Assembly: GCF_018228765.1 (NCBI RefSeq)
Contig: NZ_CP073695.1
Span: 620,001-684,000, forward strand
Length of the DNA stretch: 64,000 nucleotides
From: Halorubrum ruber
GTDB lineage: Archaea > Halobacteriota > Halobacteria > Halobacteriales > Haloferacaceae
Direction: 5' to 3'
Under the pieces are notes generated by a model. It saw only the letters and a list, made by a program, of their open reading frames with translations, had not been told where the DNA came from and did not search any database. Within the stretch, counting starts at the first letter, position 1; the number at the start of each line of letters is the position of its first letter. Below are positions 5,393 through 55,565 of the stretch, in pieces. Made by a program: the position numbers and the translations under genes.

Positions 5393-5700
5393 CGGTGGCG
5401 CGTGCCTGCGAGCGGCCGCCCTCGGCGGCCGCGAGACAGCACCACGCGAGGGAGTCGGCCGACCGGAGGGAGGCCGACGAGGCTGGGGAGGCGTGAGGTG
5501 CGGGGCTGTGCGTGGGGGTGGGATTCAAAGGGGCAGTCGCGAGGACGAAGCACGGCGCAGTAAGCACCGCAGCGAACGGAGTGAGCGAGGAGCGCAGCAA
5601 GCCGCGCGAGTCCTCGCGGCTGGGGCTTTGGCGGTGTTCGTCGTCGCTCCGCGATCCGCCATTTATAAGCGAGCGACTGGGGCTTTGGAGGAGTTCACCC
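5393..5700 (+). repeat. Dispersed structured element, copy A
   Basis: Forward copy of the four-member family. Order: 5' box GGTGGCGCGTGCCTGCGAG (about 5395-5413); hairpin P1 (8-bp arms 5413-5420/5424-5431, loop CTC); P2 (GTCGGCC/GGCCGAC, near 5454 and 5472); central box GAGGCTGGGGAGG (about 5479); CAAAG-GGG; P3 5' strand 5534-5546; variable domain; P3 3' strand 5610-5622; GGG-CTTTG. P3 pairs 13 bp with one G-T wobble. A TATA-like TTTATAAG and a second copy of the tail GCGACTGGGGCTTTGG follow at about 5662-5686; this tail matches the P3 5' strand better than the true 3' strand does. No protein is encoded. Confidence 0.85.
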
Positions 5701-12824: not shown

Positions 12825-13700
12825 CTACGAGTCGTCGCGTCGCCCGGCCGCCTCGTCGTCCTCGTCTTCGTCCCCGTCGCCGACGGTTTCCTCGACGGTC
12901 TTCTCGACCGTTTCCTCGACCTTTTCGCCGACGGTTTCTTCCACGGTCTCCTCCACCGTTTCTTCGACCTTTTCGCCGACGGTCTCCTCGACGGTCTTCT
13001 CGACCGTTTCCTCGACCTTTTCGCCGACGGTTTCTTCCACGGTCTTCTCGACCGTTTCCTCGACGGTTTCGCCGACTTTCTCCTCGACGGTTTCGCCGAC
13101 TTTCTCCTCGACGGTTTCGCCGACTTTCTCCTCGACCGTTTCGCCGACCTTCTCCTCGACGGTTTCGCCGACTTTCTCCTCGACGGTCTTTTCGACGGTT
13201 TCGCCGACGGTGTCTTCGACTTTCCCCGTGACCTCCTCGCTGACGGTGTTGCTGACGTCGTCGGCGACTTCGCTGACCTCCTTGTTGACGGTCTCGCCGA
13301 CGCTCTTTTCGACCTCCTTGCTCACCGTCTCCTCGACCTTCTCGCCGACGGTCTCCTCGACGGTCTTCTCCACTTCCTTGCTCACCGTCTCGCCGACCGT
13401 CTTCTCGACCTCCTTGTTGACGGTTTCGCCCACGGTCTTCTCGACCTCCTTGTCGACGGTCTCGCCGACGCTCTCCTCGACCTGCTTGCCGACCTGGTCC
13501 GCCACCTCGCGGGTCATCCAGTCCGGGTCGAACCGCGCCATCTTCCAGACGACGTGGATCACGTACGAGGCGAACACCCCGATCCCGAACGCGATGGCCA
13601 CGTCGTTCTGCTGGGTGGTCGCGATGAGGACGATCGACGCGGCGATCAGCGCGCCGTACGCGATGTCGGTTATCGCGTCCACCCGCGCCGGACTCACCAT
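12825..13700 (-). CDS. Membrane-anchored protein with a long tetrad-repeat helix
   Basis: 291 aa. Two membrane helices near the N-terminus (about residues 11-29 and 33-51, [17 protein letters not shown]) are followed by about 200 residues of degenerate repeats such as EEKVGETV and ETVEKTVE. Valine or another aliphatic residue recurs every fourth position and nearly everything else is Glu, Lys, Thr or Gly. It ends in a short Asp/Glu-rich tail. The repeat is visible in DNA as 24-base units (about 13070-13180). The pattern suggests an extended amphipathic or coiled helix reaching from the membrane. Function unknown; no enzymatic motif. Copy number probably varies between strains. Confidence 0.75.
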
Positions 13701-22515: not shown

Positions 22516-22570
22516 GTCAGCGAGCGCGGATCGGCAGTTAACACCGCCGGATCCTCAGCCGATCATTTAT

Positions 22571-22977
22571 AAATAGCTGAGCCCAGAACGACATCGGACG
22601 CCTCCAAAGCCCCAGCCGCTCGCTTATAAATAACCGATCGTGGATCGGCGGCGAACTCCTCCAAAGCCCCAGCCGCTCGCTTATAAATAACCGATCGTGG
22701 ATCGGCGGCGAACTCCTCCAAAGCCCCAGCCGCGAGGCCGCAGTACGCTCGTTGTGCTCCTCGGTCGCTCACTACGTTCGCTCCCTGCGGTGCTTACGTC
22801 GCCTACTGCGGCCTCGCGGCTGCCCCTTTGAGTCCCGCCCCGCACGGCACCGCCCCGCACCTCACACCTCCCCAGCCTCGTCGCTGGCACCCTCCGCTTC
22901 GCTCCGGGAGCCAGCGACTCCCTCGCGCGTGCTCCTCGCGACCGCCGAAGGCGGCCGCTCGCAGGCACGCGCCACCG
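22571..22977 (-). repeat. Dispersed structured element, copy B, with a 57-base tandem array
   Basis: Reverse-strand copy. P3 is a perfect 19-bp helix: one strand at 22804-22822 (CAGCCGCGAGGCCGCAGTA read on the minus strand), the other at 22727-22745. P2 is GTCGCTGGC/GCCAGCGAC (near 22912-22920 and 22879-22887). P1 has loop TTC. The 3' tail is tandemly repeated: units of 57 bases begin at 22601, 22658 and 22715, each with the CCAAAGCCCCAGCCGC tail, the first two also carrying a TTATAAATAA box. It lies between aIF1A and the RimK-like ligase. Open frames here are by-products of the repeat. Confidence 0.85.
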
Positions 22978-27035: not shown

Positions 27036-28513
27036 AGAAAGCCTCGCGCTTTAGCGCGGGGATGAATCCGACACTACCCTTCACAGTCCGCCGTTCGATG
27101 GCACGGCTGGATATTCCACGCTGAGCAAATACACAGCTTCAAGTAAGTTTGTCTACATAGGTTACGTATGGCGAAACAGGTCGTTACCCGCACCTACACC
27201 GCTTCCATACGGAACCAGTCGCGGGTACAAGACGACCTTGATTCGCTCGGGTTCGCAGCCAGTAAGCTCTGGAACGTCGGACGGTGGACGTGTAGTCGGA
27301 TCTGGGATGAAATCGATCACATCCCGAACCACAACGAACTCACCACGTACCTCAAAACCCACGAACGCTATGATGACCTGCATTCGCAGTCAAGTCAGCG
27401 AGTCCTTCAAGAACTCGCTGAGGCGTTCAACGGCTGGTACGGCAAACGACGTAACGGAGACACGAGAGCGAACCCGCCCGGCTACCGTAAACACGGCGAC
27501 GAACACCCGCGTTCCACAGTCACGTTCAAAGCCGCTGGCTTCAAACTCGACACCCAGTACAACCGCGTCCGACTCTCAAAAGGATCGAACCTGAAAGAGT
27601 ACTGGTCGGATTTTGTCCTGTGTAAGTACCAAACTCGCCCCGACGTTGACCTCTCCGCCGTGGAGAACGTCCAACAAGCCAAGATTGTGTGGACGGGCGA
27701 CGAATGGGAACTACACTTCGTCTGTAAGGTCGAGATCGACGTGGATGAAGCCCCCGGTGAGAAGACGGTGGGTGTTGATCTCGGTATTAACAACTTTGCC
27801 GCGCTCGCGTATGAAGACGGTCACAGCGAGCTGTACCCGCTGAACTGCTTGAAACAGGACGACTACTACTTCAGCAAGCGAATTGCTCGGTGTGACGACT
27901 CGAATTCCGATCAGGCCACCCGGCTGAACCAGAAGAAGTCGGCCCGCCGCACCTACTACTTCCACACCCTCTCGAAACATATTGTCCAGCGGTGTGTTGA
28001 CGAGGAAGTTGGAACTATCGTGGTGGGAGATCTCTCCGGCATCCGTGAGGATGAGGAGAACGCCGAGTCAAAGGACTGGGGCATGCACGGGAATCTTGAT
28101 CTGCACTCGTGGGCATTCGACCGTTTCACAGACCTTCTCGAATACAAAGCCGAAATGGAAGGTGTCACGGTTGAACAAGTGTCTGAGCGGGATACCTCGA
28201 AGTCGTGTTCGTGCTGTGGCCGGAAGTGTGACGCGAACCGTGTTGAACGTGGACTGTATGTCTGCGATGAGTGCGGGACAGTGGCGAACGCGGACGTGAA
28301 CGGTGCTGAGAACATTCGGCAGAAAGTATCTCCAAGTCCCGCCACGGATGGCGGTGATAGGAGTAACGGCTGGTTGGCACAGCCATCGACGTTCTTGTTT
28401 GACAAGGAAACTGGTGCGTTTGTACCTCAAGAACAGGTCACGTCGTAAACCACAATATCCCAACCCAGCGGTGCGGTGCCGTGGGAATCCTCGCGCTTCA
28501 GCGCGGGGAGGAT
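27036..28513 (+). mobile_element. IS200/IS605-group (IS1341-type) element carrying tnpB, no tnpA
   Basis: A single tnpB gene in distinctly lower-G+C sequence sits between pgk and lrp. A right-end-type hairpin lies at 28488-28512 (CCTCGCGC TTCA GCGCGGGG, then AGGATGTCAA), ending next to the lrp stop codon. A near-copy of the same hairpin (CCTCGCGC TTTA GCGCGGGG, 27042-27061) occurs before the gene. The left boundary is uncertain: it may be the left hairpin or lie nearer 27100. No Y1 transposase is present, so the element is non-autonomous. Confidence 0.75.
27168..28448 (+). CDS. tnpB: TnpB-family protein (RNA-guided nuclease homologue) with catalytic Glu apparently replaced by Gly
   Basis: 426 aa, full length. 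RuvC-like domain: D204 in GVDLGINN, then VVGDLSGIRE where the family's catalytic Glu would sit but G287 is found, and D376 in NADVNGAENIRQK. Spacings fit ISDra2 TnpB (D191/E278/D361). A four-cysteine zinc finger (CSCCGRK ... CDECG) lies between the last two motifs. Known TnpB proteins use a guide RNA from the element's 3' end to cut DNA and favour element retention. With Glu missing this copy may be cleavage-deficient. G+C is lower than neighbours, consistent with transfer. Confidence 0.88.
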   Translation: MAKQVVTRTYTASIRNQSRVQDDLDSLGFAASKLWNVGRWTCSRIWDEIDHIPNHNELTTYLKTHERYDDLHSQSSQRVLQELAEAFNGWYGKRRNGDTRANPPGYRKHGDEHPRSTVTFKAAGFKLDTQYNRVRLSKGSNLKEYWSDFVLCKYQTRPDVDLSAVENVQQAKIVWTGDEWELHFVCKVEIDVDEAPGEKTVGVDLGINNFAALAYEDGHSELYPLNCLKQDDYYFSKRIARCDDSNSDQATRLNQKKSARRTYYFHTLSKHIVQRCVDEEVGTIVVGDLSGIREDEENAESKDWGMHGNLDLHSWAFDRFTDLLEYKAEMEGVTVEQVSERDTSKSCSCCGRKCDANRVERGLYVCDECGTVANADVNGAENIRQKVSPSPATDGGDRSNGWLAQPSTFLFDKETGAFVPQEQVTS

Positions 28514-30701: not shown

Positions 30702-31016
30702 CTTCAAAGCCCCAGTCGCGACGGCTCGCGCGCCTTGCTGCGCTCCTCGCTCGGTCGCTGTTGCTCCCTCGCTGCGGTGCTTGCTGCGGCGTGCTTCGCC
30801 CTCGCGACTGCCCCTTTGAGTCCCACCCCACACCGCTCAGCACCGCAACCTCACACCTCCCCAGCCTCGCGGTTCGCGCTCTCCGAGCGCTCACCGCGTC
30901 CAGCGAGAATCGAAGATTCTCTGGCAGCCGGCGCGTAGCGCCGGCGACCTCGCGGGCTGGCTCGCGGCCGCCGATGGCGGCCGCTCGCAGGCGCGCCACC
31001 GCCTGCCATTTATAAA
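30702..31016 (-). repeat. Dispersed structured element, copy C
   Basis: Reverse-strand copy between the convergent glnA and nrdJ genes. P3 core CAGTCGCGA/TCGCGACTG (30802-30810 with 30713-30721) is perfectly paired although copies B and D have C-G where this copy has T-A. CAAAG-GGG and GGG-CTTTG flank it. P2 is CGCGGT/ACCGCG. Two inserted triloop hairpins: 30905-30921 (7 bp, loop GAA) and 30927-30945 (8 bp, loop GTA). On the element's 5' side a TATA-like TTTATAAAT (31008-31016) sits just before the GGTGGCGCG box. Confidence 0.85.
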
Positions 31017-35026: not shown

Positions 35027-37294
35027 TTACTGGAACGCCGCGCCCGGTTCGGCCTCGTCGCGGTTGACCTCCGACCGCTGGAACTGCTTTTCTATCTCCT
35101 CGTACCGCTCGCGCGTTTCGGGGGTGACGCTCGGGTTCACCTCGTTCAGCGCGTCCTCGAAGTGCGCCATCGTCACGCGGACGTTGCCGACGGACTCGCC
35201 GACCTCCTCGCGCGTGACGCTGCCGATGAACTCCCGGGAGGCGTTCATCGACGCCTCGCGGGCGACCGCCTCGATGTCGGCGCCCACGTACCCCTCGGTC
35301 TTGCGGGCCAGCGCGTCGAGGTCGACGTCGTCGGCCAGCGGCTTGTTCCGCGTGTGGACCTCGAAGATCCGGCGGCGGGCCGTCTCGTCGGGGACGGGCA
35401 CGTGGACGTGCCGGTCTAAGCGGCCGGGACGCAGCAGCGCCGAGTCGATGAGGTCCGGGCGGTTCGTCGTCGCGATGACGACGACGTCCTCCAGCGACTC
35501 GAGCCCGTCGAGCTCCGTCAGCAGCTGGGAGACGACGCGCTCGCCGACGCCGGAGTCGCCGGAGTTCTTCCCGCGCTCGGTCGCGATCGAGTCGATCTCG
35601 TCGAAGAACACGATCGTCGGCGCGTTCTCGCGAGCCTTGCTGAACACCTCGCGGACGCCCTTCTCGGACTCGCCCACGTACTTGTTCAGCAGCTCGGGCC
35701 CCTTGATCGAGATGAAGTTCGACTCGCTCTCGTTGGCGACGGCCTTCGCGAGCAGGGTCTTCCCCGTGCCCGGCGGGCCGTACATCAGGACGCCCTTCGC
35801 GGCCTGCATGTCGAGCTCCTCGAACACCTCGGGGTACTCTAAGGGCCACTGGATCGTCTCGCGGAGCCGCTCTTTGGTGCCCTCGAGGCCGCCCACGTCG
35901 TCCCAGGTGACGTCGGGGACCTCCACGAACACCTCGCGCAGCGCGGAGGGTTCGATCCCCTTGATCGCCTCCTTGAAGTCCGCCTCGGTCACCTGAATGC
36001 TGTTCAGCACGTCGGCGTCGATCTCGTCGCTCTCTAAGTCGATCTCCGGCCGGATACGCCGCAGCGCGTGCATCGCGGACTCCTTCGCCAGCGACTCGAG
36101 GTCGGCCCCGACGAAGCCGTGGGTGTTCTCGGCGTACTCGTCGAGGTCGACCCCGTCGGTCAGCGGCATGTTCCGCGTGTGGACCTGCAGGATCTCCTTG
36201 CGGCCGTCGCGGTCGGGGACGCCGACCTCGATCTCGCGGTCGAAGCGGCCGCCCCGTCGGAGCGCCTGGTCGATGGCGTCGACGCGGTTCGTCGCCCCGA
36301 TGACGACGACCTCGCCGCGCTCCTCGAGCCCGTCCATCAGCGAGAGGAGCTGGGCCACGACGCGGCGCTCCACGTCGCCGCCGGCCTCCTCGCGCTTGGG
36401 CGCGATGGAGTCCAGCTCGTCCATGAAGATGATCGACGGCGACTCCTCGGCCGCCTCCTCGAACACCTCGCGGAGCTGCTCTTCGCTCTCGCCGTAGTAC
36501 TTCGACATGATCTCCGGGCCGGAGATCGTGTGGAAGTTCGCGTCGATCTCGTTGGCGACCGCCTTCGCGATCAGCGTCTTCCCCGTGCCCGGCGGGCCGT
36601 GGAGCAGCACGCCCTTCGGCGGGTCGATGCCGAGGCGCTTGAACAGCTCCGGGTGCCGCATCGGCAGCTCGATCATCTCGCGGACCTGTTCGAGCTCGTC
36701 GTCGAGCCCGCCGATGTCCTCGTAGGTGACGTCGGGCCCCTCGCCGGTGCCGCCCGGGGCGTCGCCGCGGTCGGCGATCTCCTCGGCGGAGATCTCGGAG
36801 ATGCTGATCTCCGTCTCGTCGGTGATGACGACCGTGCCGCTCGGGCTTGTCTCGGCGATCTTCATCGGGACGGCCTGCGACTGACCGCCCATCAGCCCGA
36901 AGCCGAGGGAGGTCCGGATCGTCTGTCCCTCGGTCACGGGCTGGCCGGAGAGCTTGTCGCGGATGAACGGGGCGATCTGGCCCCGCACCCGCAGTTGGCT
37001 CGGGAAGGCGATCGTCACCGCGTCTGCGCGGGAGACGTCGACGTCCTCGACGGTCACGCGGTCGTCGATCCCCACGTCGGCCTCCTGCCGGAGGCGGCCG
37101 TCGATGCGGATCACGCCGGTGCCGTCGTCCTCGGGGTAGCCGGGCCAGACCCGGGCGATCGCGGCCCCGTCGGCGCCCTCGACGCGGACGATGTCCCCGC
37201 CGGAGAGCCCGAGCTCGTCGGCCGCGACGCGGTCGATCGCCGCGAGGCGGCGGCCGGCGTCCTTCTGTTTCAGCGGCTTGACGGTGAGCTTCAT
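35027..37294 (-). CDS. cdc48: Cdc48/VAT-type AAA+ ATPase
   Basis: 755 aa. N-terminal Cdc48 double-psi barrel domain ([20 protein letters not shown] through about 185), then two AAA modules. D1 has [18 protein letters not shown] and Walker [12 protein letters not shown]2 has [18 protein letters not shown] and [10 protein letters not shown], with R-finger and second-region-of-homology motifs ([20 protein letters not shown]). A hexameric unfoldase that extracts and unfolds proteins, often for the proteasome. Its ATG (37292-37294) overlaps the stop of the DUF7127 gene, so the two are translated together. Confidence 0.95.
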
Positions 37295-37576: not shown

Positions 37577-37687
37577 TTGACGCTCAAAATCGCACGACGT
37601 GAGTGTTTCTCTGTTCTATCGGTAGTGTAGCGGTTCGGATCCCATTGCCCCCGATCGGTCGCCGTCCGGCGGTCGGCGCCGCGTCGT

Positions 37688-37755
37688 GTCTCCCGTTCGG
37701 ATCGCGGGCCCGTCTCCCGTTCGGATCGCGGGCCCGTCTCCCGTTCGGATCGCGG
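37688..37755. repeat. 24-base tandem repeat, 2.8 copies
   Basis: Unit GTCTCCCGTTCGGATCGCGG plus GCCC begins at 37688, 37712 and 37736 (the last incomplete). The copies are essentially identical, so the expansion is recent. It lies just before the alpha/beta-hydrolase gene, about 60-130 bases from its ATG. Confidence 0.85.
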
Positions 37756-54936: not shown

Positions 54937-55082
54937 TAACGGAGTAGTCTTACCCGAATTTCGCCCCGTGCGAGTGATAAAGTTGCTGTTATAGCGGCGT
55001 CAGCCCGCGCGACGGCTTCCGGCGGAGGGCCGACCTCGACGGCGAAGTGGTATATAAATAAACGAACCCGGGTGGCGTGGCC

Positions 55083-55565
55083 GTTTATAAATAGTGCCGC
55101 GGTGCGGTGGCGCGTGCCTGCGAGGCCGCGTTGCGGCCGAGCAGCACGCGCGAGGGACGCGGTGAGCGAGGGCGACCGGAGGGGGCCCGAGCGAACCGCG
55201 AGGCTGGGGAGGCGTGAGGTGCTGTGCGGGGCGGTGCGGGGCGGGACTCAAAGGGGCAGCCGCGAGGGCGGCGCAGGCGACGTAAGTAGCGTGGCGCTAC
55301 GCGCCACGGAAAGCCGGCGGCGAAGCCGCCGGCGACACCGCAAGGAGCGAGCAGCGCGAGCGACTGGGGAGCGTGGTTCGAGAGAGCGAAGCTCTCTCGT
55401 CATCACGAGACGCCTTCGGCGTCTCGAACGACAACGAGCGTGCGCCGCCCTCGCGGCTGGGGCTTTGGCGGTGTTTGCCGTCGATCCGGTATTAGCCATT
55501 TATAAGCGAGCGGCTGGGACTTCGGCGATGTTGTTCGCGTCACGGCCGGTATGATTTATAAATAA
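55083..55565 (+). repeat. Dispersed structured element, copy D (longest)
   Basis: Forward copy between eif2g and the DUF5810 gene. TATA-like TTTATAAATA (55084-55093) precedes the GGTGGCGCG box (55106). Central box GAGGCTGGGGAGG near 55199-55211. P3 is a perfect 19-bp helix, 55257-55275 with 55441-55459 (CAGCCGCGAGGGCGGCGCA strand). The loop inside P3 (165 bases) holds four triloop hairpins: 55291-55307 (7 bp, loop TAC), 55313-55333 (9 bp, GAA), 55379-55399 (9 bp, GAA) and 55406-55426 (9 bp, TTC). A TTTATAAG box and a diverged tail copy follow at about 55499-55525, and ATTTATAAATAA at 55554-55565. Confidence 0.85.

Follow-up and report, generated by a model that had tools for sequence, protein, structure and literature searches.

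A dispersed haloarchaeal repeat whose main hairpin keeps its pairing while its stem letters change

The nearest described counterparts of the element reported here are the PATEs, small mobile repeats of Haloquadratum that are likewise short, non-coding, palindromic, haloarchaeal and present in high copy number, and that are likewise invaded by other small repeats (PMC3119063); membership of this group is not established. PATE palindromes resemble the ends of IS605-type elements, and PATEs lack inverted ends and have no room for a transposase (PMC3119063), whereas our element forms inverted pairs in g24 and g60 genomes and inverted-repeat units in Halorubrum. A PATE has been reported in Halorubrum lacusprofundi and its virus (PMC10544981). 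The REP and BIME repeats of bacteria are also intergenic, chromosomal and hairpin-forming, with 100 or more copies found more often between convergent than between divergent genes, and the element meets the REP criterion of an intergenic, high-copy palindrome. REPs, however, measure 20-40 nt, a size criterion that the element fails: its core is ~330 nt long and combines several helices and hypervariable cassettes with unpaired motifs that are invariant. As in MITEs, terminal inverted repeats (end CAGTACAGGGGTAGC) are present, in ~12 of 95 host copies, but most copies have none, target duplication was not found and the parent transposon is unidentified. At Neisseria pilE, G tracts adjoin a locus of frequent gene conversion, as they do here; our copies differ in being dispersed, non-coding and engaged in exchange of hairpins, and a quadruplex has not been shown in them. 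A search of the open-access literature (subscription journals were outside its scope) gave no match to the consensus letters and no fitting description.

The window analysed, meaning the whole stretch of 64,000 nucleotides of Halorubrum ruber DNA (NZ_CP073695.1, positions 620,001 to 684,000), holds four copies of the element, A to D (Table 1), which were found by a covariance model of the P3 domain, R1, at E values from 3e-24 to 3e-8, the next match in the window having an E of 0.42. A sequence-only reading of this window had claimed that helix P3 is a perfect 19-bp pairing in copies B and D, that the differences between these two copies at pairs 12, 15, 16 and 18 are each compensated on the opposite arm, and that pair 4 is C-G in B and D, T-A in C and T-G in A; all of this held, with exact coordinates. 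The perfect 19 bp is true for B and D only, as copies A and C form a second class in which an outer helix of ~13 bp, carrying a G-G at its pair 10 in copy C, is followed by a different inner stem. P3 is followed on its outer side by a symmetric internal loop, GGG/GGG, and by an outer stem, CAAAG/CTTTG.

Other features of the window were also recorded. An IS1341-type TnpB gene (27168-28509) carries CTCGCGCTTNAGCGCGGGG palindromes at its ends and contains the sot0042 sense-overlapping RNA (Rfam RF02656, 188.8 bits; 28324-28509), and the ends of this one TnpB element (CTCGCGCTTTAGCGCGGGG / CTCGCGCTTCAGCGCGGGG), compared by eye, have no motif in common with the core. Other repeats comprise a 12-bp periodic stretch at 12829-13470 (~34 overlapping matches at 12-bp spacing), possibly encoding a repetitive protein, tandem 24-bp repeats of CCGTCTCCCGTTCGGATCGCGGGC at 37662-37755, and duplicated segments ~820 bp apart, of 72-74% identity, at 35241-36673.

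Table 1. Positions of the P3 element and its parts in the window
Feature	Position	Strand	Basis or remark
Copy A, P3 domain	5521-5631	+	model R1, E 1.5e-21
Copy B, P3 domain	22718-22835	-	model R1, E 3.3e-24
Copy B, P3 5' arm	22804-22822	-	spacer 58 nt
Copy B, P3 3' arm	22727-22745	-	
Copy C, P3 domain	30704-30823	-	model R1, E 7e-23
Copy D, P3 domain with inserts	55244-55468	+	model R1, E 3.4e-8
Copy D, two AT boxes upstream of structured core	TATATAAATA 55051-55060; TTTATAAATA 55084-55093	not assigned	
Copy D, core start, P1 5' arm GCGGTGGCGCGTGCC	55104-55118	+	95-copy consensus; partner 55144-55151
Copy D, P1b hypervariable hairpin	55122-55141	+	
Copy D, P1 3' arm GCACGCGC and conserved unpaired GAGGGA	55144-55157	+	95-copy consensus, RNAalifold fold
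Copy D, P2 hypervariable hairpin (cassette)	55158-55200	+	49 distinct P2 sequences in class-I copies
Copy D, conserved unpaired joint GAGGCTGGGGAGG	55200-55212	+	95-copy consensus
Copy D, G tracts GGGG-C-GGG, ACT, outer stem 5' arm CAAAG, internal-loop GGG	55238-55256	+	nearly invariant across genera
Copy D, P3 5' arm CAGCCGCGAGGGCGGCGCA	55257-55275	+	spacer 165 nt
Copy D, inserted two-hairpin module (TAGCGTGGCGCTACGCGCCACG; GCCGGCGGCGAAGCCGCCGGC)	55287-55337	+	absent from most copies; near-identical one in L312
Copy D, inner chain: 2-bp steps, tandem G-A mismatches, apical loop	55342-55367	+	
Copy D, second inserted two-hairpin module	55375-55433	+	similar modules in L042, L303
Copy D, P3 3' arm	55441-55459	+	exact complement of 5' arm
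Copy D, internal-loop GGG; outer stem 3' arm CTTTG	55460-55462; 55463-55467	+	
Copy D, downstream AT box TTTATAAGCGAGCGG	55499-55513	+	closes a ~57-bp unit

The element is a high-copy, intergenic constituent of the host chromosome and is spread through the class Halobacteria. The core motif GGGGCAGYCGCGAGG occurs at 102 exact places in the host genome (3.02 Mb, a single contig) and the reversed control at none, while a longer form of the motif, with two mismatches allowed, gave 174 host copies and between 7 and 151 in each of 34 other genomes sampled from the genus; the motif was present in all 35 Halorubrum genomes sampled. Named records carrying it were from Halorubrum and one uncultured archaeon. 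That the element is confined to Halorubrum, as a first pattern search had it, was ruled out by looser patterns and by model R1 (built from a 40-sequence alignment), which matched 128 of 155 genomes of the class Halobacteria in 49 of 59 genera. Relatives in other genera keep the architecture with wholly different P3 letters, and genomes with few copies have one to three, mostly of the P3 domain alone.

For the host, 95 copies were retrieved and aligned. RNAalifold recovered P1, P1b, the outer stem, P3 and the inner chain, the last as 2-bp steps separated by tandem G-A mismatches and ending in a GNA loop; P2 was hypervariable and poorly aligned. The outer stem covaries (GAAAG/CTTTC, CAAAG/CTTTG, CGAAG/CTTCG), and the unpaired joint TGGGGAGG is conserved in other genera too. 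An AT box lies 13-18 nt ahead of GGCGCG in 42 of 92 copies and no more than 40 nt ahead in 55 of 92, and another lies 44 nt past P3 in 50 of 92. The upstream TATA/AT box was rejected as a core promoter because, ~14-18 nt before the core, it would be inferred to start transcription inside P1. The ~57-bp unit that ends in the downstream AT box is repeated several times after other copies; 3' of copy B, tandem ~57-bp units (CGGCTGGGGCTTTGGAGGAGTTCGCCGCCGATC..TATTTATAAGCGAG on the element strand) occupy 22521-22740, and many other copies are followed by similar units, whose number varies.

The joint at which a two-hairpin module is inserted differs from copy to copy, and modules related to the first of copy D occur at other joints of other copies. 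As side observations, these mobile-looking modules (~50 nt) are inserted in both directions, as in the example GAGGGACC-GNA-GGTCCCTC followed by TGNCA and then GCCGGCG-NNN-CGCCGGC, and besides the two of copy D were located in L098, L108, L110, L113 and L312; L042 and L325 are a variant, with P1b/P2 hairpins ending in TTTTAA (GCGCTTTTAAGCGC, GCGGCCGCTTTTAAGCGGCCGC).

Pairing in P3 is maintained far beyond chance. The helix is present in nearly all of the 95 genome-wide copies, and in 66 class-I host copies, with 25 variants of its variable 8 bp between them, it is perfect in 50, contains wobbles only in 13 and has a mismatch in 3. The sequence-only reading was to be refuted if further copies showed one-sided, helix-breaking substitutions as often as not, and with 3 of 66 mismatched this clearly failed to occur. 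In an alignment of 62 distinct sequences drawn from many genera, 98.5% of cells were paired (66.9 +- 1.0% in shuffles), the covariation score was 0.759 (0.165 +- 0.012 in shuffles), and two-sided changes were seen at 12 of the 13 pairs of P3 as well as at one outer pair; sliding the partner column by 1-3 positions reduced paired cells to 49.6% or less. These shuffle and slide controls rule out a chance origin of the pairing. Two measures that count only pairs or pair types showed no excess over shuffles, because variants already saturate most of the columns. Two-sided changes were seen in 20 of 25 predicted pairs of the 40-sequence alignment, and at one site that is orthologous in genera g53 and g28 (L363/L386/L389/L390), with flanks 81-84% identical, the P3 letters differ and are compensated except for a few mismatches.

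Many of these double changes are supplied by cassette exchange and by copying of one arm from the other. When 11 host sites were compared with three close Halorubrum species, the element was usually at the same place (it was absent from several of these sites in G293), and P1b, P2 and P3 at the shared sites were often different, ready-made hairpins. P2 alleles common to two or more copies always stood beside different P3 alleles (9 of 9), establishing hairpin-cassette exchange among paralogues. L306 and L324 carry the inner hairpin in reverse orientation between their P3 arms, and L030 has a 3' arm that complements its 5' arm exactly, including the GGG (GGGG) that normally stays unpaired. Two host copies, at two sites, have an identical 279-bp core. 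Since hairpins are swapped among paralogues and arms are inverted or copied, independent compensatory substitutions are fewer than a naive count would give; pure arm copying is not the whole story, however, because the GGG/GGG loop, the bulged A and the tandem G-A mismatches are kept. The earlier proposal of selection or concerted change for pairing thus held, both parts being seen.

Gene context, determined with a simple purpose-written gene caller, placed 30 host copies between convergent genes, 24 and 25 between genes both on the plus or both on the minus strand, 15 between divergent genes and none inside genes. No orientation preference towards genes was found in the host or in the other genomes examined. 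A role as a co-directional 3'UTR, considered as several copies lie directly after stop codons, was rejected by this context, and replication co-orientation, at ~60 of 101 by hand count relative to two presumed origins (orc1 hits), was unconvincing. No conserved reading frame was noticed in the element.

In three genomes checked the element was on the main contig only; Halorubrum plasmids yielded one truncated copy, viral sequence sets no Halorubrum-type copies, and plasmids of other genera (those named including Halobaculum, Halorussus, Haloarcula, Natrinema and Haloplanus) few copies. Besides solo P3 domains there are inverted-pair forms, a foldback arrangement in which two divergent P3 domains flank a small central hairpin (g24 genomes) or stand as wider divergent pairs (a g60 genome), and the elaborated Halorubrum form, a single P3 domain carrying P1, P1b and P2. 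The terminal inverted repeats described above bound units of ~600 bp, one of which contains copy C; repeats of about CAGTACAGGGGTAGCGRCGAGCGATTTCGGGAGTR were observed to enclose the core in L014, L041, L062, L080 and L021 (copy C). Positions are mostly common to close species, and presence or absence at sites differs between species. No transposase, target duplication or precise empty site was identified, the flanks and short orthologous sites being too diverged to reveal target-site duplication.

Which molecule folds, RNA or single-stranded DNA, was left as alternatives by the sequence-only reading and remains undecided, with loop types favouring DNA. In well-paired columns G-T exceeded A-C in 20 of 25 informative cases and the reverse held in 5 (p 0.004; relatedness of the copies not removed), and therefore one strand, the G-rich one, is folded. 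The inner cassette is in forward orientation in 94 of 95 copies. Most apical loops are of the cGNAg type and hardly any are GNRA: among 227 P3 inner-hairpin loops 102 were GNA, 24 GNYA and 3 GNRA, among 92 P2 loops 67 were GNA and 2 GNRA, and 28 of 81 P1b loops were GNA. In DNA the extra-stable loops are those of d(GCGNAGC) hairpins and of d(cGNNAg), whereas GNRA and UUCG are the loops favoured in RNA. The GNA loops may thus point to folded single-stranded DNA over RNA, an indication that rests on general knowledge of loop stability without an RNA control from the same organism. Better-than-shuffle folding, seen for both strands as DNA (z -4.6 and -4.5) and as RNA (z -5.0 for the core strand and -3.7 for the other), does not decide the molecule.

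The main rival explanation is that the G-rich strand of the many copies is transcribed into a structured non-coding RNA, whose helices are kept by selection on the RNA and whose loops bind a protein. In its favour are textbook covariation with G-U intermediates, the bias to one strand, internal loops that are invariant across genera and the stronger RNA fold of the core strand; base-pair covariation beyond controls, a criterion for a structured non-coding RNA, is met. Against it, no promoter was found at a usable distance, an orientation preference is absent, GNRA tetraloops are almost absent and there is no Rfam family, copies A-D having no match in Rfam 15 and copy D only chance hits at a permissive threshold. 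We rate this rival, in which transcription is an inference, as less likely than not. It is unlikely that complementarity is kept without any selection, by arm-from-arm copying (quasipalindrome correction) and hairpin gene conversion alone. The copied arm of L030, GGG loop included, the inverted inner hairpins, the cassettes swapped at orthologous sites and the shared P2 alleles beside different P3 alleles speak for such a process; copying would, however, erase the GGG/GGG internal loop, the bulged A and the tandem G-A mismatches, all of which are conserved, it predicts G-T equal to A-C, which was not observed, and the unpaired joints are invariant across the class.

A further proposal, compatible with the explanation we prefer, is a G-quadruplex/hairpin hybrid formed in the potassium-rich cytosol: four G tracts (GGG-N-GGG, GGGG, GGGG) would come together at the GGG/GGG loop that separates P3 from the outer stem and would promote exchange between copies. 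Both upstream tracts had at least 3 G in 258 of 293 matches with a long inner tract, and all four true elements with a short inner tract (L380, L403, L411, L412) had GG-N-GG upstream, the remaining short-tract matches in the scan being coding-sequence look-alikes. The short-tract cases number only four, however, and in paired forms GGGYGGG is able to pair with CCCRCCC of the partner; with no biophysics, we regard a quadruplex as improbable.

Our preferred reading, in which function and DNA form are inferred and which could as readily prove wrong as right, is that haloarchaeal chromosomes carry an old, non-coding, dispersed element, foldback/MITE- or REP-like, that has P3 as its main hairpin and acts as folded single-stranded DNA. 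The working form would be a single folded DNA strand, made accessible by replication or extrusion, and a trans-acting protein would recognise the invariant unpaired motifs (GAGGGA, TGGGGAGG, GGGNGGGACTSAAAGGGG...GGGGCTT and the AAG-AC/GAGGA internal loop) and would spread or maintain the element. Stem letters would be free to vary provided that pairing holds, and recombination between copies and between both arms would renew them together. Against this reading stand the lack of an identified transposase, target duplication or precise empty site, the positions mostly common to close species, and the near-absence from Halorubrum plasmids and viral sets, which is odd for a mobile element. A bolder version, which we raise only as a possibility, is that of a class-wide element folded as single-stranded DNA with a G-quadruplex/hairpin junction, a domesticated structural element and not a parasite, in which recombination among ~170 copies replaces the hairpins and the fold and unpaired motifs alone are preserved.

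With hundreds of natural variants per genome, the element offers a test of whether DNA-level processes can yield base-pair covariation, a question that bears on every covariation-based RNA claim. At 174 copies of a ~330-bp core, some 2% of the host chromosome would consist of a structured element that is undescribed and present class-wide; if RNA, it would be an abundant and unrecognised archaeal RNA family, and if DNA, a large-scale example of selection acting on the structure of single-stranded DNA.
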